A stretch of 39,414 nucleotides of DNA from a virus, in the IMG/VR virus record IMGVR_UViG_3300035670_000567, positions 1-39,414 of that record. One strand, written 5' to 3'. Of the stretch, positions 5,513 through 36,848 are shown piece by piece; the first letter of the stretch is position 1; every line of letters starts with the position of its first letter. The translations under genes and the position numbers were made by a program. The notes below the pieces were generated by a model, which saw only the letters and a program-made list of their open reading frames with translations, was not told the origin of the DNA and ran no database searches.

Positions 5513-5962
5513 ATGGCGAACGAAAACAAACCTAGCAGCAAGAAATGCTTCAAGTGTGGTGTCGATAAGGCTCTTTCTGAGTTTTATCGACACCCAATGA
5601 TGGCGGACGGGCACCTGAATAAATGCAAGGAGTGCAACAAAGCCGACACTAGAAGGAATAGGGCCAAGAGAGTAGATTATTACCGAGAATACGATAGAGC
5701 GCGCGGCAACAGGCAGTCAAAGGAATACAAGGATGGTTACTATCTGGCATTTCCCAAAAAGACAAAGGCTAGAACCGCAGTCGGCAACGCCATAAGAGAC
5801 GGAAAATTGGTTAAGCCGAAGACATGCGAAAACTGTGGGTCTGGCGGGACAATACACGGCCATCACGACGATTACGACCTGCCTCTTGATGTAAGGTGGC
5901 TTTGCGCACCGTGTCACAGGCGCTGGCATCTCGAAAATGGGCCAGGTGCCAATGGAGAATAA
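5513..5962 (+). CDS. HNH endonuclease with N-terminal zinc-finger
   Basis: A 149-residue protein. The N-terminus carries a C-x2-C ... C-x2-C unit (KCFKCGVDKALSEFY at 11-25, then CKECNKA) typical of small phage zinc-finger/HNH proteins. The C-terminus has CENCG, then GHHDDYDLPLDVRWLCAPCHRRWH, an HNH core with a second pair of cysteines. The gene is visibly less GC-rich than its neighbours and sits between the SSB-like and exonuclease genes, as expected of a mobile free-standing HNH endonuclease. It has no strong ribosome binding site. It could equally be a specific nickase serving replication or packaging. Confidence 0.72.
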   Translation: MANENKPSSKKCFKCGVDKALSEFYRHPMMADGHLNKCKECNKADTRRNRAKRVDYYREYDRARGNRQSKEYKDGYYLAFPKKTKARTAVGNAIRDGKLVKPKTCENCGSGGTIHGHHDDYDLPLDVRWLCAPCHRRWHLENGPGANGE

Positions 5963-5963
5963 T

Positions 5964-6854
5964 ATGACCGAACCCGCCCAACGCACTCCCGCATGGTTTG
6001 AGGCCCGCCGAAACCGAGTGACCGGCTCCGTAGTCGGCGCAATCCTCGGAATTGCACCATACATGAAGCGCAGCGATGTGATGCGCTTGATGGTGCGGGA
6101 GTCGCTGGGGGCAGAGCGCGAGTTCCAAGGCAACATCGCAACCGAGTTCGGGGCCTACAATGAACCCGGCGCGCTGATCGAGTTCCAGATGGAAAGCGGC
6201 CTGCGCGTTCGGCCTGCGCCGTTCCTGATCTACGAGGATTGGCTGGGGGCATCGCCAGACGGCTTTACCAGCGACGGCGGGCTGGTCGAGATCAAGTGTC
6301 CGTTTGGTCTGCGAAAGGATGAGAACCCGGAGTTCAAGTCCATCGACGACCAGCCGCACTATTATGCGCAGATGCAGATTCAGATGTTGGTGGCCTCGAC
6401 GCCATCGCATCCAGTGCGACACTGCCACTTCTACCAGTGGTCGCCGAATGGCACGAAGCTGGAGCGCGTGGAACTAGACCAGTCTTGGCTCGACGAAAAC
6501 CTGCCAAGGCTGCGGCAGTTCCACGCTGAGTTCCTTGACGAACTCGCCAACAACGCTGACGAGCATCTGGCCCCAAAGCGGATTGAGGTCGATACGCCGG
6601 AAGCCGCCAAGATGGTGGCCGAGTGGGATGAGATCGCGGAGCAGCTTGAGCGGCTGGCCGAGCGCAAGCGCGACCTACTGAACGAGATGGTAGCCCTTGC
6701 TGGAGAGAAGAATGCGCTACTGGCTGGCCGAAAATTGACCTTGACGAAGCGCGATGGAGCGATATCGTATGCCAAGATCGTCAAGGATCATTGCAAGGGC
6801 GTTGACCTCGACAAGTATCGTGGTAAGCCAAGTGAGTTTTGGAGTTTGAAATGA
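5964..6854 (+). CDS. YqaJ/lambda-exonuclease-like recombinase
   Basis: A 296-residue nuclease of the YqaJ viral recombinase group, related to lambda Exo. The N-terminal RTPAWFEARRNRVTGS box (7-22) is the family entry motif. The PD-(D/E)xK site is visible as E67 (GAYNEPGALIEF), D99 (ASPDG) and E109-x-K111 (LVEIKCP). The second half carries a long charged coiled coil (about 205-250). The start is ATG 5964, preceded by GGAG; upstream in-frame ATGs at 5937 and 5952 lack a site. Expected role: 5'-3' resection to produce strands for the Sak4-like annealase. It overlaps the next gene by four bases. Confidence 0.85.
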   Translation: MTEPAQRTPAWFEARRNRVTGSVVGAILGIAPYMKRSDVMRLMVRESLGAEREFQGNIATEFGAYNEPGALIEFQMESGLRVRPAPFLIYEDWLGASPDGFTSDGGLVEIKCPFGLRKDENPEFKSIDDQPHYYAQMQIQMLVASTPSHPVRHCHFYQWSPNGTKLERVELDQSWLDENLPRLRQFHAEFLDELANNADEHLAPKRIEVDTPEAAKMVAEWDEIAEQLERLAERKRDLLNEMVALAGEKNALLAGRKLTLTKRDGAISYAKIVKDHCKGVDLDKYRGKPSEFWSLK

Positions 6855-7438
6855 CAATTAACGGCACAAGCCAGTGGGCAATCAAGCGGCGCATGAAAGA
6901 GGCCGGGGCATTTTCCTGCGGGCATGAGTGGTCCATGCAGAACCAAGTCCGCAATGGTAATTCTTATCGTTGCCGCCAGTGCGCAGAGGAACAGAAGGCG
7001 CGGCGGGAAAAGATCAAGAACGAGCGCGACGACAAGATTCGCGCCTATGTTCGCAGTGGTAAAACCATCAAGGAAGCCAGCAAGGAGTTTGGCGTATCCT
7101 ACAACATTGCAGTCAAGGCGTGTGGCGGCCTTGGGACTTTGCGGCGCAGTGAGTTGATTAAAGACCCGCTGTTCTCCTCTCGCGCGCTCAAAGTGGCCGC
7201 CGAGGCCGTGGGGGCGAATCCAGAGCAGCTACGCAAGAACTGGAGGGAAAAGCCGCTTGTGAGGGCGCGGTGGGCCTTTATGATTGCAATGCGCAAGCGT
7301 GGTGCCAGCACGAAGCGGATCGGGAATGTGCTGCACCGGGATCACACGACGGTCATTTATGCACTACGCAAGGCGTTGCCATTGGTGGCGCAAGACCCGT
7401 ATTTTTCAGATTTGGTCAGGCGGGTTGACGCTGCCTGA
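6851..7438 (+). CDS. DnaA-domain-IV-like DNA-binding protein
   Basis: A 195-residue protein. The C-terminal part contains GNVLHRDHTTVIYALRK (158-174), very close to the DnaA signature of domain IV (xLxRDHTTVxxA), which reads DnaA boxes. Before it lie a possible zinc knuckle (C23, H25, C41, C44) and a helix-turn-helix-like segment KTIKEASKEFGVSYNIAVKA (71-90). There is no AAA+ domain, so it is not an initiator by itself. It may mark the phage origin, compete with host DnaA, or repress transcription. The start is ATG 6851, with GGAG upstream. Confidence 0.7.
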   Translation: MTINGTSQWAIKRRMKEAGAFSCGHEWSMQNQVRNGNSYRCRQCAEEQKARREKIKNERDDKIRAYVRSGKTIKEASKEFGVSYNIAVKACGGLGTLRRSELIKDPLFSSRALKVAAEAVGANPEQLRKNWREKPLVRARWAFMIAMRKRGASTKRIGNVLHRDHTTVIYALRKALPLVAQDPYFSDLVRRVDAA

Positions 7439-9815: not shown

Positions 9816-10093
9816 AACAAGCGAGCCTGTTTGAAGCGCCTCCGCCAGAGCGGTCCAAGATGCCGAGCGCACAACTTGACGACCTTATGAACTGCCGGAT
9901 CGCGTGGGATGACGCACCGGAGGCCATCAAGTCATGGGCGCAGTTCTACTTCTACAAGGCTGCCGTTGCGATTTGCCGGATGCCAGATAGGGACAAAAGG
10001 AAAGCGGCCCTGGAGAAAGTTCCAGAGCCGCTTCGCCCGAAGGTTGAGGCAGAGGTTATTCGGATTTGGCCGGTGTTCCGCCCGAAGCCGTAA
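9809..10093 (+). CDS. Hypothetical protein, 94 aa
   Basis: Unrecognised 94-residue protein. The N-terminus, VEQASLFEAPPPERSKM, is proline-rich and flexible, followed by a helical, basic region (YKAAVAICRMPDRDKRKAALEKVPEPLRPKVEAEV). It overlaps the VRR-NUC gene by seven bases and is the last gene of the rightward operon. Its final 38 bases overlap the end of a minus-strand gene, so the two operons are convergent. Its position suggests an accessory to recombination, but no motif supports this. Confidence 0.6.
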   Translation: MVEQASLFEAPPPERSKMPSAQLDDLMNCRIAWDDAPEAIKSWAQFYFYKAAVAICRMPDRDKRKAALEKVPEPLRPKVEAEVIRIWPVFRPKP

Positions 10094-10241
10094 CCAGACC
10101 CTTCTCCATCATCTCGATCTGCGCGCGAACCTGACGCGCCAGATTCCGCAGGTCAAACGAATCCACCTTGCCGTCAGTCTCCTCGGATATGAACGCCAGA
10201 TCGTCGAGACGCTTTGCGATTTTGTTTAGGGCGTTAAGCAT
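10056..10241 (-). CDS. Small helical protein, 61 aa, downstream of ABC-GNAT gene
   Basis: The start chosen is ATG 10241 (MLNALNKIAKRLDDLAF), because GGAG lies seven bases upstream and the ATG overlaps the ABC-GNAT stop as ATGCTTAA. A longer frame from 10466 runs through that gene and is rejected. The protein is predicted helical and charged (NLARQVRAQIEMMEKGL), possibly a coiled coil. It converges with and overlaps a plus-strand gene by 38 bases. Function unknown. Its tight coupling suggests it belongs to the ABC-GNAT cassette. Confidence 0.55.
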   Translation of the reverse strand: MLNALNKIAKRLDDLAFISEETDGKVDSFDLRNLARQVRAQIEMMEKGLVTASGGTPAKSE

Positions 10242-11295
10242 TTTGTTCTCCAATGTATTCATGCGAGTAGCATACGCGGCTGATATGCTTGTGCTTGTGG
10301 CCGTCCTCTTTTGTCCCGTGAGACGAGTTATAGTCCGCCCTAGCCTTTCGGTTTTTACTGGTTGGCTTCCACAGAGGGGAGGCGTTCCGATACTCACCGA
10401 GGCGAGGGTGAGCAGTTTTTGAGAAGTAGCGACACCCATCAGTGACAAAAATCTTGGCAACTGCATCGCTTAGGCGGACGCCAAATCCCAACCCCTGATA
10501 ATCTGGCAAAATCACTGTGCGATGCTCCCTCCATCCGTTATTGAAGTTGCCATTGGGGAACCTTAGGGCTGAAGCAAAACCAATTGGGACTCCATTCCAA
10601 ACCGCGATCCAGCACCTTGCACTCTTGTTTATGCCGCCATCTAAATAATGATGCGGGCGGAAGATCGGCCAGATGCTTGCGGAAGTAGGCAAGACTTCCA
10701 ATTCAATTCTGGGTCGTTGAACTGCCCCCCTTCCGGCCAGATGGCCGGTGCTTGTGTCAAATACCCAATCAGGCTGGAGCCATTCTATTATGTCATAGTG
10801 GCATGAGGCCAGAACAATGTTGCGAAGTTCCTTTTTGTCAACATAGCGCCGCAACGCCACAGAGCAAGCCTTTGCCACGTTCCGGTCGATGACAGAGGTG
10901 AACTCATCAATCACCGCGTTATGATACAGCGATCTCGCTAAATCTGCGCGGAACCTCTCCCCGGTCGAGAGAACATGGTATGGACGAAGCCAAGATGGGA
11001 TGCTGTTCAGGCCCACCGCAGAAAGCCGTTCTGCGGCGTCATCGGCGTCCACAAAGTGAGAGGCCACAGCAAGATCGGGGAACCAAGAATGCTTCCGCTC
11101 GCTTCCAAAGCGGTTGAGCAGCGTGGATTTCCCAGAACCGGATGGGCCGACAATCAACCCTAGTCCAAACTTCGAGGGCACCTCTGGCATGATCGGAGGG
11201 GTGAACCGGGACACTCCGGTAAACTCATAGTCGAACATAGCACTAATGGCATCCGTCACATCGTCTAGTGACACCTTAGAAACAAGATCATTCAT
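10234..11295 (-). CDS. ABC-type ATPase fused to GNAT/Mom-like acyltransferase domain
   Basis: A 353-residue two-domain protein. Residues 1-190 form an ABC-class ATPase: Walker A GPSGSGKST at 50-58, signature-like LSTGER at 109-114, Walker B AVIDEF at 127-132 and switch histidine in SCHYD (166). It lacks membrane spans, so it is not a transporter. Residues about 205-353 form an acyltransferase-like domain with HHYL at 215-218, an ITAP-type strand CWIAVWNGVPIGFAS, and the acetyl-CoA-loop-like LPDYQGLGFG at 263-272, then a conserved-looking basic tail (SPLWKPTSKNRK). The HHY element and GNAT fold recall the phage Mu Mom protein, which modifies adenine in DNA. DNA modification or anti-restriction is an inference. 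The start is ATG 11295 with AAGGAGG upstream; GTG 11298 is also possible. Confidence 0.75.
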   Translation of the reverse strand: MNDLVSKVSLDDVTDAISAMFDYEFTGVSRFTPPIMPEVPSKFGLGLIVGPSGSGKSTLLNRFGSERKHSWFPDLAVASHFVDADDAAERLSAVGLNSIPSWLRPYHVLSTGERFRADLARSLYHNAVIDEFTSVIDRNVAKACSVALRRYVDKKELRNIVLASCHYDIIEWLQPDWVFDTSTGHLAGRGAVQRPRIELEVLPTSASIWPIFRPHHYLDGGINKSARCWIAVWNGVPIGFASALRFPNGNFNNGWREHRTVILPDYQGLGFGVRLSDAVAKIFVTDGCRYFSKTAHPRLGEYRNASPLWKPTSKNRKARADYNSSHGTKEDGHKHKHISRVCYSHEYIGEQNA

Positions 11296-11840
11296 CACTT
11301 ATACCTCCTTGCCTTTTCAATAATCTCTTGCTTGGTCAGCACATTCCGGCCAACCCGCCACCACTTGCCGTTAGCGTTGTAGCGCCCATCTTCGTTGCAG
11401 CGGTTCACCGGAAACCGCTCCCGGCGTAGCACATCTGCGGCCTCCTCGTCCGGGTCTTTTTGATAGATCATGGCGATCGCTGGCTTGCGGACCTTGCCCA
11501 TGCTGGCGAGTCGATTGCGCTTCGGGATATGCCGCCGAGCCGATACACCAGCCTCCTTCAGCCAGCGGTCGATAGTGCCGCTCCACTTGGCTCCGTAGTG
11601 CTGGGCAAGCTGGCTCTTGGTCATGGTCGGGGCGAGTTCAGCGAAGTCGCTGGGCATCGGCTTTTTGTTGTATGCTGTCCGCGTAAGCTGGCTGGCGCAC
11701 CACAATCCTCGCCAAGCTGCTATGCGCCTGATCGACGGGGCCTCACCGAACTTGTCCAGCACCATTTGCCTGATCAGGGTTGCGCTGCGCTCGAATGGGA
11801 CAAGCCCTTTTGCCATTGATTCAGGGTCAGGCCATTGCAT
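11295..11840 (-). CDS. Putative DNA-binding protein upstream of ABC-GNAT gene
   Basis: A 181-residue basic protein with no certain family. Residues about 74-97 (MTKSQLAQHYGAKWSGTIDRWLKEAGV region) read like a helix-turn-helix. The C-terminal third is basic (RRERFPVNRCNEDGRYNANGKWWRVGRNV). The start ATG 11840 has GGAG six bases upstream; a GTG three bases earlier is closer than usual to the site. It is the first gene of a three-gene minus-strand cassette and overlaps the ABC-GNAT start. It could regulate the cassette or guide the modification enzyme to DNA. Both are speculation. Confidence 0.55.
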   Translation of the reverse strand: MQWPDPESMAKGLVPFERSATLIRQMVLDKFGEAPSIRRIAAWRGLWCASQLTRTAYNKKPMPSDFAELAPTMTKSQLAQHYGAKWSGTIDRWLKEAGVSARRHIPKRNRLASMGKVRKPAIAMIYQKDPDEEAADVLRRERFPVNRCNEDGRYNANGKWWRVGRNVLTKQEIIEKARRYK

Positions 11841-11894
11841 CACTTACTCCTCATAGGTCAGTTGATGGGCGGACACTGCCTGCAAAAAAAGTGT

Positions 11895-11922
11895 TTGACA
11901 ACCTCAAAATTGATGGCATTGT
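11895..11922 (+). promoter_or_regulatory. Candidate promoter for the small-gene operon
   Basis: -35 TTGACA at 11895-11900 is a perfect match. With a 16-base spacer the -10 would be CATTGT (11917-11922), a weak match. It lies in the 117-base gap between the divergent minus-strand cassette and the plus-strand small-gene operon, about 35 bases before the first start codon. No promoter for the minus-strand cassette was clear in the same gap. Confidence 0.4.
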
Positions 11923-11957
11923 CTGCGCATCGAAATTGATTGTCACAGGAGATTGAA

Positions 11958-23060: not shown

Positions 23061-23694
23061 GGTAAACCTTCCCACGGTCCAGCATACTAAATCCAGCGCT
23101 GGCCCCGGTCAAATCAGTCACGCCAGACCCAGCGCCCATGCCGTTAGCCGCACCAAGCGTGGCAGATGCGGACAGATCGCCGGAATCGAACAGCTTCTGC
23201 ATCATGTAGGTTTGATCCGGTGCGCCAGACAGCGTGGCTAGGTAGTTCTCGACTGTCAGCGTGATCCGCTGTTCCTTTGGGCTGCCAGCAATGACAACAT
23301 CGTTCATATAGCCAGTGTAATACGGGATGATCTGGCCGACCTGCACCTCATTTTCATCAGCGACATAAAACCACAGCCGAGCGGTCCGCCCCTGCCATTT
23401 AGTCTTGTCGCCAATGATGGCGAGCAGGTCAGTATTGACTACCAGCCCGCTCATCTGGATCGTCACGGTATCGGAGCCGGTTTCGTTGTGCTTTACGGCT
23501 CCGACCTCCATAATCTTGTGGGCGTAGCTTTCGTAGTATCCATCCAACTCCGCGTCACCAGAACCTGAAACGGTCTTGCCATAAATGGCGCTCGTGGCAC
23601 GGAGGGGGTCGCCGTCGAAGTCGGCGTAAAGCAGCGCCCGCCAATATAGAACCCGCTCCTCAAGAGCGGCCTGTGTGGTGGCGTCAACACTCAT
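23053..23694 (-). CDS. Minor tail protein (213 aa)
   Basis: A beta-rich structural protein: EERVLYWRALLYADFDGDPLRATSAI early, IQMSGLVVNTDLLAIIGD in the middle, and QRITLTVENYLATLSGAPDQTYM late. The size and order (tape measure, 215-residue tail protein, this, NlpC-like, J-like) correspond to the lambda M-L-K-type segment. It starts one base from the upstream gene stop and overlaps the next gene by eight bases. The exact role is not recognised. Confidence 0.6.
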   Translation of the reverse strand: MSVDATTQAALEERVLYWRALLYADFDGDPLRATSAIYGKTVSGSGDAELDGYYESYAHKIMEVGAVKHNETGSDTVTIQMSGLVVNTDLLAIIGDKTKWQGRTARLWFYVADENEVQVGQIIPYYTGYMNDVVIAGSPKEQRITLTVENYLATLSGAPDQTYMMQKLFDSGDLSASATLGAANGMGAGSGVTDLTGASAGFSMLDRGKVYHV

Positions 23695-24341
23695 TAGAAC
23701 GACTCACGTAGCTTGAACGAGAAACCGTAGACCATCCCAGGCTCGGTCGGCTCGTCAACCTGTTCCGCGCAATACATTTTTGCGTATGGGTTGCGGAACT
23801 CGATCAACGCATTGTTCGCCGGAGGAACGCGGATTGCTGGCGCGAAACTGATCTCCGCTTCCCCAGCAGCGTTAGACACAACGTCAGCCGTCAGGCGCAG
23901 CAATTGGTCATCAATCGTGATGTGCTGCCCGCGCCGCAGGACTGTAGTGGACGGAATCCATCCCCAAGTGTCAAGTGTCTTGCCGGTCTGATCTGCGCCC
24001 TTTACTGCTGGCTCGCTTCCTGTCGAATATGCGCCGCCAAGGAAGTCGAGATACAGTTCTGGCAGCAGGCCGGTCCACCCGTTGTCCTGCTCACTCGGCA
24101 TCTTCTTGACGTGGAAGTCGTTCTCATCGCCGTTCATTTCAGCGATGAACGCCAGCCACTCCCGCGCATCTTCCTCTCCAACAATCGGCGGAAGCGTTAC
24201 ATCGCACTCCCACCAGCCGCGACCGCTTGGCAGGGTCTGACGGCCACCCGTCCACCCAGAAATGTTGGTCTGCGCTGGCTGGATCAGCCGCCACACCATG
24301 CTCTGCGGCTTGGGAAAAGATGGAAACGTGATAGTAGCCAT
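23694..24341 (-). CDS. Minor tail protein (215 aa), distal-tail-like
   Basis: Begins MATITFPSFPKPQSMVWRLI, a pattern seen in distal tail or tail-tip-proximal proteins of siphoviruses. It contains WTGGRQTLPSGRGWWECDVTLPP and SFAPAIRVPPANNALIEFRNP, suggesting a beta-sandwich. It is directly downstream of the tape measure gene, with a one-base overlap. It probably helps form the tip complex; the call rests on position and size more than on motif. Confidence 0.6.
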   Translation of the reverse strand: MATITFPSFPKPQSMVWRLIQPAQTNISGWTGGRQTLPSGRGWWECDVTLPPIVGEEDAREWLAFIAEMNGDENDFHVKKMPSEQDNGWTGLLPELYLDFLGGAYSTGSEPAVKGADQTGKTLDTWGWIPSTTVLRRGQHITIDDQLLRLTADVVSNAAGEAEISFAPAIRVPPANNALIEFRNPYAKMYCAEQVDEPTEPGMVYGFSFKLRESF

Positions 24342-32558: not shown

Positions 32559-34424
32559 TCAACGCCAGCTATTAGCAAAACCACCTTTCGGCCTCGCCTG
32601 ATTGGGCCGCACAAGCGGGTGCGGCTTTTCCGTGACTTTAGGGGCCTCGGAAGCCACCCGCTTCTCGATATTAGCATAAAATCGCTTCACAAGGCTATCA
32701 ATATTTACGTTCAGGATATGGAACGCCGCAATGGCGTAAACGCGAACGTCAAGGGCCTCGTTGCGGGTCCGAGTCTTGATCCAGGTCCGCACCGGGTAGC
32801 CCTTGTGATACTTGATGACCTGCTTTTCCGCCGTCAACTGCCGGAAATACTCCTCGTCCCGCGCGGTCGGGAAGTGGCAGTAACCCGGCCCCGGCTCCTC
32901 GATCCGCAGGCGCGCGTAGTGCAATTCCTTCGCGGTATCCACGCCGACAGGATAGAGCGGCACCTTGCCGATGTTGTTCTTCGACGGCCTGCCGACGATA
33001 GGCTTGCCCTCACCGCCGACACCCTTGACGGCCCAGACCCGGTGGCCCGCCCTTGTCTTGGCGTAGTTGTAGACCGCGCGGGTATGGTGGCCCCCGGAGT
33101 CAACACAGGTCGAGCGGATCAGCATAGGCTCCCCGCTCGGATGCTCGTATGTTGCCAGCAGCACTTCGTCCAGCCGCGCCCATAGCTGCGGGGAGGACGG
33201 GTCGCCGTAAATGACCTGATACTCGATCTGCCACGTTTCTTCGCCGCTGGCCCATCCCAGCACCTCGACCTCCAAGCGGTCGTCCTGAACGTCAACCCCA
33301 GCCGTCAGCAGCACAACGTCCTCTGGGATGCCGTCATAGTCCTCGCGGCGCTGGGCAATGGCGTAGTCGTCCACACCCTGCCCCTGATCTTCCCATGTCT
33401 CAGCAAGGATCGTATTCACGAAGGTCTTGAGCCGCATCGGGTCTTTCCGGCAGGCCAAGAACTCCTCGACGGTATCGACCAGATCAACCCACGGCGAGTA
33501 GAGCGCATTGAACCAGAAACCAGCGGCCCCATTAAATGGCTTGGTGGCAACCCACTTGCCTTGGCTGACGGACGCATGGCGTTCGCTTTCGGTCCACGCG
33601 GCCCCGCATTCCGCGCAGTGATAGCGCGCGGTCTTGGGGTTGTCGTCCTGCCAATGCACGTTTGACCACACCAGCAGTTGCTCATGCCCGCAGTGCTGGC
33701 ACGGCACGTAGAACTTACGCTGGTCCGTCTCCTCGTATGCGTCCTCGATCCGGCTCGCCCCCCGGTTGGTCGGGGTCGAGACTTGGATTATCTTGCGGTT
33801 CCAGAACGTAGCCGCTCGGCGCTTTGCCAGAGAGATAGGATCGCCTTCCTCACCAGCCGAAGGGGGATATCGGTCAACTTCGTCGCACAGGACCACACGG
33901 ATCGGACGAGAAGCAAGGGAAGATGGAGAGTTAGCCCCAACAAGAGACAGAGCGCCACCAGGGAATACCTTGTGCAGAGTCGTATTGTTCGCATCTTTCG
34001 CCCTACTGTCGTTGACCAGCCCGCGCAGCGCCGGGGTCGGTTTGATGAGGCCCGCAGTCACACGATCCTTGGAGAAGGACTGCGCCATGTCCACAGTCGG
34101 CTGCATGACCAGTATCGGGCATGGATCGTGGTGCATATGGTAGCCGATGGTGTTCAGGATCGCCTCGGACTTGCCGCTCTGCGTCCCGCACATGACCACC
34201 ACTTCACGCACTGCCGGGTCCGAGCAGGCGTCCATGATCCCGCGCTGATACTCTGCCCGCGAGGTATACCACCGCCCCGGCTCGGCGGACGACTGGCTAT
34301 CCAGCCGCCGCTCCTTGTCGGCCCACTCCGCCACAGACAAGCGCGGTGGCGGTGTCAGGCGGCGCATTGCCCCCGACAACTGCGCCATTGCGCTTGTGCG
34401 GATGGAGGGGTCGAGGAGGATCAT
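32559..34424 (-). CDS. Terminase large subunit (lambda gpA-like)
   Basis: A 621-residue packaging motor. Walker A is GTQSGKS at 80-86 and Walker B RVVLCDEVDRY is at 176-186. A zinc-ribbon-like part (VPCQHCGHEQLL, then YHCAECGAAW) precedes the nuclease domain, where VDSGGHHTRAVYNYAK fits the RuvC-like core. The length and motifs are those of the gpA group, often used by cos-type phages. It probably acts with the small subunit at 34651-35082. Confidence 0.9.
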   Translation of the reverse strand: MILLDPSIRTSAMAQLSGAMRRLTPPPRLSVAEWADKERRLDSQSSAEPGRWYTSRAEYQRGIMDACSDPAVREVVVMCGTQSGKSEAILNTIGYHMHHDPCPILVMQPTVDMAQSFSKDRVTAGLIKPTPALRGLVNDSRAKDANNTTLHKVFPGGALSLVGANSPSSLASRPIRVVLCDEVDRYPPSAGEEGDPISLAKRRAATFWNRKIIQVSTPTNRGASRIEDAYEETDQRKFYVPCQHCGHEQLLVWSNVHWQDDNPKTARYHCAECGAAWTESERHASVSQGKWVATKPFNGAAGFWFNALYSPWVDLVDTVEEFLACRKDPMRLKTFVNTILAETWEDQGQGVDDYAIAQRREDYDGIPEDVVLLTAGVDVQDDRLEVEVLGWASGEETWQIEYQVIYGDPSSPQLWARLDEVLLATYEHPSGEPMLIRSTCVDSGGHHTRAVYNYAKTRAGHRVWAVKGVGGEGKPIVGRPSKNNIGKVPLYPVGVDTAKELHYARLRIEEPGPGYCHFPTARDEEYFRQLTAEKQVIKYHKGYPVRTWIKTRTRNEALDVRVYAIAAFHILNVNIDSLVKRFYANIEKRVASEAPKVTEKPHPLVRPNQARPKGGFANSWR

Positions 34425-34645
34425 TCTCCCTCCCGAACTTCCTCTATCGTGTGCCCAAGGCGCTCAATGATTCTGCGGAAGACATCTTCCGCGTCATAAC
34501 TTTCGCCATCATAGCAGTAAGCGGACGGCTCAAGGTCGATACAGGGAACACCGTCAAATTCCACAGCCGCGCCCGTTGCGTAAGTCCAGCCGCAGGTGTC
34601 GCATTCATGTTCATCGGAAAGCCATTCAATCTTGATCTTTGTCAT
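34421..34645 (-). CDS. Hypothetical acidic protein with zinc-ribbon-like CxxC
   Basis: 74 residues starting MTKIKIEWLSDEHECDTCGWTY. A single CDTCG pair near the N-terminus and a very acidic remainder (DAEDVFRRIIERLGHTIEEV) make it small and unusual. AAGGAG lies upstream of its ATG. It sits between the two terminase genes, its stop overlapping the large-subunit start. It may be a small packaging accessory; not recognised. Confidence 0.6.
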   Translation of the reverse strand: MTKIKIEWLSDEHECDTCGWTYATGAAVEFDGVPCIDLEPSAYCYDGESYDAEDVFRRIIERLGHTIEEVREGE

Positions 34646-34650
34646 GGTAT

Positions 34651-35082
34651 CTACTCCTTCAACTTACTAATCTTCTTCGGCCTGCCTGGGCCGCGCTTTG
34701 GCTTCTCTGCGCTCTGCTCGCCACTGGGCGTCATTGACACCCCCGTCGCAACAGGGTCCACGCTGGGGTTGTAGTTCGCCAGTTCCTCAAGGGCCTCGCG
34801 CACCGACTCCTCCAGCCGCTCCTTGATGGTGCTTATGTCGCTGGTGCCAGCAATGACCGGAGCCATCTTGGTCGGGATCGCCAGCAGCTTGGCGCGGCAG
34901 GCATGAAGAACGCTCTCCCACGCCTTCACCACATCAGCCGTCAGGCACAGGGTGGCCTTGATCCGCTCCAGTTCAAGTTCCGCAATCTCAGCCTCGGCAG
35001 CAATCTTGCGCGTCCGCGCCTCGTCATACGAGGAGCCGATGATGACGCCGCCGGTTGTGGGTTTGCGTTGCTTCTCTGGCAT
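34651..35082 (-). CDS. Terminase small subunit (Nu1-like)
   Basis: A 143-residue protein from ATG 35082 (MPEKQRKPTTGGVIIGSSYD). Its core (EARTRKIAAEAEIAELELER) is a coiled coil, followed by TADVVKAWESVLHACRAKLLAIPTKMA, as in the Nu1/Phage_DNA_packing family. The C-terminus is basic and Pro-rich (PKRGPGRPKKISKL) and may bind DNA. The start has no clear ribosome binding site; an earlier frame to 35121 adds 13 residues from a TTG. It would recognise the packaging site together with the large subunit. Confidence 0.75.
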   Translation of the reverse strand: MPEKQRKPTTGGVIIGSSYDEARTRKIAAEAEIAELELERIKATLCLTADVVKAWESVLHACRAKLLAIPTKMAPVIAGTSDISTIKERLEESVREALEELANYNPSVDPVATGVSMTPSGEQSAEKPKRGPGRPKKISKLKE

Positions 35083-35958: not shown

Positions 35959-36165
35959 CTATTCTCCCCCGCAATCGTCAATTGACAGGCTGTCCAGATA
36001 GCAATCGGCCTCTGCCATGATATCGTCCGGATAATAATAGGCGGCCCCGTCATACGTGCCAGCCCGCTTTGCCGCGCGCATAATATCGGAAATAGCTAAG
36101 TCACCAAAGCCATAGCTAGTGAGCATTGCCGCCGCGCGGCCCCACGATATAGCGGCCCCGTTCAT
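35959..36165 (-). CDS. Hypothetical small protein, 68 aa
   Basis: An Ala/Tyr/Asp-containing protein (MNGAAISWGRAAAMLTSYGF, then YDGAAYYYPDDIMAEADCYL). The stop is four bases before the next ATG and the start overlaps the upstream gene's stop by four bases, so it is in a translationally linked row. It might carry a short helix-turn-helix (AISDIMRAAKRAG), but this is weak. Not recognised. Confidence 0.5.
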   Translation of the reverse strand: MNGAAISWGRAAAMLTSYGFGDLAISDIMRAAKRAGTYDGAAYYYPDDIMAEADCYLDSLSIDDCGGE

Positions 36166-36848
36166 GCCCCGACTCCTTCCGCAACGGCGCTTGCCTTGCG
36201 CTTGCTAGTCCCGTGGGCAGGAAAGCCTATGATTGCCTTGCGCCCTATTTCCGCACACAAGCCGCAAGAGGCACAATTCACCGAGTCCGATATAGTGGCG
36301 GGGCAGATTGCGACATGCCTTCCAGCGGGCGTTTTCGTTGCCCTAGTTTGATCCGCTGGCAAAACGACAACAATTGGCGCAATTTCCATTGCCGCTAATT
36401 CATCCGCTTCCGCCAGGTTGTCAGCCGATAGGTTAACGGCAAAGCCTGCCAAATTAGCTTTCGCCACTAGATAGGCATTTTCGGATCCTGGCAATGCAGG
36501 CTTGTGCGTATAGGTAAAGCCGCGCTTTCCACGATTAGCGGCAATCAATTGATCGAAAGCAAGCCTGTCGATTGCATCCCCTATGCCGGGCAAGTCACCG
36601 GCCTGGTTATGCCGCCATAGCGTGCCTTTCGGAAGCTTTCGAATTTCACGCAATGCGGCTTCCCATGAAAGCCCGGCCTTCCGTTCTGTCACCTTGCGCC
36701 AAAATAGGGCAAGCGGCCCCGCTTCCGCATAGCACCCGTTTTTCTTTAACGGGCAAGCTTCCGGGCAGGTTTCTTCACTTGTCGTCGTCACCGGGATAGA
36801 GCCTGTTTTTGCGTTACGTGAAACGCGCGTGAAAGCAATATGGTGCAT
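36162..36848 (-). CDS. Cysteine-cluster protein (DUF7227-like), 228 aa
   Basis: The N-terminal part carries TTTSEETCPEACPLKKNGCY (about 21-40), three cysteines in a tight cluster followed by a CYAEAGPLALFW motif. A region LWRHNQAGDLPGIGDAID follows. The C-terminus has a second cluster, NCASCGLCAEIGRKA, suggesting Fe-S or zinc binding. The family appears in phages and plasmids and is not characterised. The CYAE element is also seen in DUF5131 (phage Gp37/Gp68) proteins, so a distant relation is possible. It is the largest gene of the accessory cassette. Function unknown. Confidence 0.65.
   Translation of the reverse strand: MHHIAFTRVSRNAKTGSIPVTTTSEETCPEACPLKKNGCYAEAGPLALFWRKVTERKAGLSWEAALREIRKLPKGTLWRHNQAGDLPGIGDAIDRLAFDQLIAANRGKRGFTYTHKPALPGSENAYLVAKANLAGFAVNLSADNLAEADELAAMEIAPIVVVLPADQTRATKTPAGRHVAICPATISDSVNCASCGLCAEIGRKAIIGFPAHGTSKRKASAVAEGVGA

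Follow-up and report, generated by a model that had tools for sequence, protein, structure and literature searches.

What does a phage protein do when it carries an ABC ATPase and a GNAT acyltransferase in one chain? The question is raised by a gene on the minus strand of a 39.4-kb IMG/VR virus contig (IMGVR_UViG_3300035670_000567), the whole of which, 39,414 nucleotides, is called the window here. The gene and its surroundings comprise the following features:

10234..11295, minus strand: ABC ATPase-GNAT fusion gene, 353 aa, recognised by Pfam, PHROGs, AlphaFold and conserved motifs.
10710..11295, minus strand: ABC ATPase domain, about residues 1-195, recognised by structural matches and invariant motifs.
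10234..10710, minus strand: GNAT acyltransferase domain, about residues 197-353 (Acetyltransf_1 3e-9; Z 14.3 to 1y9k, 13.6 to RimI).
11295..11843, minus strand: upstream gene, 182 aa, possibly HTH-like (no Pfam match; weak phrog_5497 HTH match, 0.013).
10056..10241, minus strand: small helical gene, 61 aa, downstream, overlapping the end of the fusion gene (no family match).
10001..10034, minus strand: intrinsic-terminator-like hairpin of 14 pairs, from a consensus scan only, which could end the minus-strand transcript.
11918..11946, minus strand: weak sigma-70-like promoter match 5' of the minus-strand genes (9/12 matches, no more than chance predicts).

The open reading frame opens at a GTG (10234-11298), and the ATG at 11295, with AGGAGG upstream of it, is the better start. 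The original prediction of a single 353-residue chain that joins an ABC ATPase to an acyltransferase and has no membrane span has held up well. The reading frame was found, and Pfam (Acetyltransf_1 3e-9, ABC_tran 1e-5), PHROGs and AlphaFold agree on its content, while the maximum 19-residue hydropathy of only 1.14 reveals no hydrophobic span. Among the PHROGs profiles, phrog_11143 is a full-length match covering both domains (1.4e-109, residues 7-352 of 354), and the AlphaFold model has a mean pLDDT of 87 (alignment of 31 sequences). All of the motifs that had been pointed out are present in both halves. Because these halves keep their catalytic motifs in 116 non-redundant relatives, in which Walker A, S111/G113, D131/E132, H167, Y218, R260, P265 and G269 are essentially invariant, both are probably active.

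The N-terminal half has a Walker A motif (GPSGSGKST, about residues 50-58), an LSTGE signature, a Walker B motif (AVIDE) with the catalytic Glu, a switch His in CHYD and a predicted ABC fold, all of which place it in the ABC ATPase superfamily; the distance from Walker A to the signature is short, at about 60 residues. The C-terminal half has a predicted GNAT fold and a conserved Q-x-x-G-x-G acyl-CoA loop (Q268-G273), contained in LPDYQGLGFG, as well as a conserved HHYL motif, which place it in the GNAT superfamily. It had been suggested that the two halves be looked at separately, and in the predicted model they do resemble different folds. By structure comparison, residues 1-197 match ABC ATPases (Z about 13-14, 3.0-3.6 Å, 167-178 aligned residues), and residues 198-351 match GNATs, the best being 1y9k (3.4 Å over 139 residues), with RimI also among them. 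In PADLOC, the fusion protein had only weak mad3/mad8 matches, along the Walker A stretch. COG2401, 'ABC-type ATPase fused to predicted acetyltransferase', presumably has the same domain combination.

The neighbouring genes are a different matter. The 182-aa gene, whose stop codon runs into the start of the fusion gene, is probably co-transcribed with it, and the small downstream gene, for which 10241 is the likelier start (61 aa), may belong to the same transcript. The original prediction had drawn the three together as a cassette and had proposed looking for homologues that keep both domains and the flanking genes. The domains are indeed kept, as a conserved fusion, but the flanks are not: none of 80 relatives has a homologue of the 182-aa gene nearby, and for the small gene no more than two weak ones turned up among 80 related loci. 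Since the flanking genes are not conserved, the three genes do not form a unit, and the cassette was rejected as a conserved system. Elsewhere in the window, a putative DNA methyltransferase-like gene lies at 213-737 on the minus strand (weak PADLOC MTase_II match, 4e-6; NPPW motif; no Pfam match), a protein with a DnaA C-terminal-type DNA-binding domain (1e-11) is encoded at 6839-7438 on the plus strand, and a DUF7227 protein (2e-92) at 36162-36848 on the minus strand. An Rfam scan found no RNA family in the window.

The window protein belongs to an existing phage family, phrog_11143, which is biochemically uncharacterised and has no assigned function; it resembles this family over its full length and differs from it in nothing essential, the window representing a clade that lacks the ParB partner described below. 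The phage proteins of Jace, LE4 and Komp_PAO1_1 and a planctomycete protein also match phrog_11143; when used as an IMG/VR query, the LE4 protein had no match beyond itself. Relatives of the window protein number 249 in IMG/VR (single query) and 77 in phage records, and GTDB genomes hold at least 484 places with relatives (alignment query). Many of the GTDB relatives, especially in Planctomycetota, are prophages, since homologues of terminase and portal genes come up repeatedly downstream of them in the genome loci sampled.

The idea of DNA acylation by such a protein is not new, since a GNAT coupled with an ABC ATPase had already been predicted in 2013 to acylate a DNA base (Iyer, Aravind and colleagues, NAR, as described in PMC7824862). 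The same review, from 2021, names Tenacibaculum phage pT24 for the GNAT-ABC ATPase system, and the homologue in pT24 shares 40% identity with the window protein. Through pT24 and the description in the review, we liken the window protein to that predicted system, for which the same role was proposed. Our literature search found no experimental study of the ABC-GNAT family and no modified base reported for any carrier. The exchange with Mom at one genome position, the ParB statistics and a candidate frameshift are evidence from the present analysis.

The resemblance to Mom of phage Mu, part of the original prediction, fails at the level of sequence and gains at the level of genomic context. The window protein has no match to PF25680 or phrog_1384 among its Pfam and PHROGs matches at E<=1, whereas Mu Mom, as a positive comparison, scores 2e-75 on PF25680. 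Profile comparison of the GNAT half with Mom by hhalign gave a probability of 1-2%, not a significant match. In the best local alignment, HHYL stands opposite Mom HYS, and the spacing from the HY motif to the next conserved glycine is 23 residues in both (H217-G240 in the window protein, H58-G81 in Mom), though convergence could account for so short a motif. The Mom structure 8bv8 is absent from the 50 structural matches listed, which speaks neither for nor against a relation. Membership of the Mom family by sequence is thus not supported by PF25680 or hhalign, and neither is homology of the GNAT half to Mom; judged by its motifs, this half reads as a canonical GNAT and not as a Mom-type sequence. 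Mom also differs in having no ABC domain and no Q-x-x-G-x-G loop visible in its alignment. What the two have in common is that both are phage enzymes of the GNAT superfamily and that, in other phages, they share a ParB partner and a genome position.

In most other clades, a ParB_N-like gene of about 180 aa lies directly upstream of the ABC-GNAT gene, usually overlapping it by 3 or 21 nt. It was found in 61 of 80 GTDB loci, in all 12 streptococcal loci and in 22 of 38 loci retrieved with Jace as the query, where the loci without it include several further copies of contigs from the window's clade. Within that clade, none of 80 close relatives has the gene upstream, and neither does the window gene; a profile search found no ParB anywhere in the window. 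A tree of 67 proteins places the window in a clade of 20, all without ParB (SH-aLRT 98), and this tree requires 5 changes of ParB state, compared with 19.6 on average when the labels are shuffled. Distant relatives that have the ABC domain only (in a Nickievirus phage, a Rhizobium phage and phage-like, terminase-bearing Acinetobacter plasmids) also follow ParB-like genes and lie near a helicase; in two of the three, a thioredoxin or Tad2-like gene comes next.

The same kind of ParB accompanies Mom. Of 80 loci with Mom homologues of the Sonny type, 71 have it no more than 700 nt upstream. The Mom-linked ParB of Antuna is 57-61% identical to the ABC-GNAT-linked ParB of Jace over 92-117 aa, and is closer to it than to the Mom-linked ParB of Sonny. 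DNA methyltransferases follow related ParBs or form fusions with them (PADLOC MTase_II 1e-12). Two related Arthrobacter phages differ in which of the two enzymes fills a shared slot: the gene order is EW73, ParB EW74, ABC-GNAT EW75 and EW78 in EastWest, and So68, ParB So69, So70, Mom So71 and So72 in Sonny, with flanking genes that are 64%, 55% and 80% identical. Position points the same way in two Mu-like phages, phage007a_Bg4 and Komp_PAO1_1 (Porphyromonas and Pseudomonas), in which ABC-GNAT follows the tail genes, and lies at the right genome end in phage007a_Bg4; Mu keeps com-mom at the matching position. Mom and ABC-GNAT are not simply interchangeable, or not fully redundant, because Aeromonas phage PX29 carries both. 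In the two Mu-like phages, a formyltransferase homologue (PF00551) overlaps the end of ABC-GNAT (23523-24140; 34410-34883), a hint of a formyl-group variant or a second step.

In some phages, the two halves are encoded apart. Separate ORFs for the ABC and GNAT halves occur in streptococcal, Oenococcus, Enterococcus and Thomasclavelia phages and in one IMG/VR contig, L114 (the split loci being L136, L083, L139, L148, L150, L140, L092 and L114). In these cases GNAT is always in the -1 frame, with an overlap of 97-136 nt. The streptococcal and Oenococcus group has no ATG, GTG or TTG before the conserved HY motif in the GNAT frame, and the streptococcal cases and L150 share a GGTTTTT followed by a predicted hairpin, whose z is about -3 in three of four tested (simple shuffles). 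Going by these sequence signals, the split ORFs are likely a case of programmed -1 frameshifting, and if so, the joined ABC-GNAT protein matters. Tenacibaculum phage pT24 differs in that both halves share a frame, with a stop and about 70 nt between them (5616-5687).

Taken with the ParB partner, the slot exchange with Mom and the com-mom position, from which we infer that DNA is the substrate, the fusion protein is probably an ATP-dependent nucleic-acid acyltransferase, most likely tagging phage DNA, and a functional counterpart of Mom. These lines of context are stronger than the HY-motif likeness, and the strongest of them come from other clades, because the window's own clade lacks ParB (0/80). 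The same three lines favour DNA tagging within the earlier suggestion of a DNA-modification or anti-restriction system, from which the flanking genes drop out as members. We hold more tentatively, though as a serious possibility, that this is a widespread ATP-driven DNA base acyltransferase which is distinct from Mom in chemistry, target or ATP need, alternates with it downstream of a shared ParB-like partner and produces a hitherto undescribed DNA modification.

A mechanism can be proposed along these lines. Two ABC domains would pair head-to-tail around ATP, as in membrane-free DNA-acting ABC ATPases, and the ATP-gated dimer would grip or distort duplex DNA, the distortion presenting a base to the GNAT domain. 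This domain would then move an acyl group from acyl-CoA, the presumed donor, onto an exocyclic amine of the base; HHYL, R260 and W310 would form the wall of the substrate site, with CoA bound by Q268-G273. Where a ParB-like gene stands upstream, as in most clades, its product would load the enzyme onto DNA or control it there, and the window's clade would work without it. The acyl tag may shield the phage's DNA against restriction or label it as self.

Reading the context as DNA modification meets the objection that acyltransferases act on proteins, tRNA and small molecules as well. TmcA is an ATPase-GNAT protein that makes N4-acetylcytidine in tRNA. Like TmcA/NAT10, the window protein is proposed to combine ATP hydrolysis and nucleobase acyl transfer in one chain, and by analogy it might acylate tRNA or rRNA so that the phage protects or retunes translation. 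Some relatives do adjoin tRNA genes or a gene annotated as a tRNA-methyltransferase. We nevertheless consider an RNA substrate unlikely: the ATPase of TmcA/NAT10 is of the helicase type, not ABC, and its substrate is RNA, whereas the ParB partnership and both positional likenesses to Mom point to DNA. About equally unlikely is the acetylation of a host or phage protein (RNA polymerase, ribosome or a defence protein), as is reported for the phiKMV GNAT Rac, with the ABC domain sensing DNA or ATP. The GNAT half is structurally close to amine/protein acetyltransferases such as RimI, and protein-acting phage GNATs have been described (PMC7824862), but they are without a conserved ABC domain, and a protein substrate would leave both the ParB pairing and the alternation with Mom unexplained.

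The two remaining alternatives carry less weight. That the protein modifies a nucleotide or small molecule, either a modified-base precursor or a signal of host immunity, would suit the formyltransferase homologue found as the next gene in the two Mu-like phages and the Tad2-like gene after a distant ABC-only relative. Mom, however, acts on polymer DNA, and no nucleotide-synthesis genes recur around the fusion gene in the sampled loci, so this reading appears quite improbable. Least credible, at the far end of the scale, is a chance fusion between a GNAT and the ATPase of an ordinary ABC transporter. Searched alone, the ABC half has transporter ATPases as its best sequence matches, and the NCBIfam matches to the fusion protein are transporter ATPases only, all below the cut-off. 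Against this stand the chain without a span, the lack of a permease or other membrane partner among the recurrent neighbours, on which grounds transporter identity was rejected, and the conservation of the fusion across hundreds of phages. The homologues, which might have turned out to be ordinary ABC subunits, keep the ABC-GNAT fusion.

If DNA tagging by an ATP-dependent acyltransferase is the right reading, hundreds of phages, cultured ones included, carry an ATP-burning DNA-modifying enzyme. The question can be put to the test straight away thanks to the alternation of Mom and ABC-GNAT behind one ParB family, EastWest and Sonny being related phages that each carry one of the two enzymes. 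The family would then add a class of DNA-acylating enzyme with an ATPase motor, and it would suggest a function for a branch of ParB that is currently without one.
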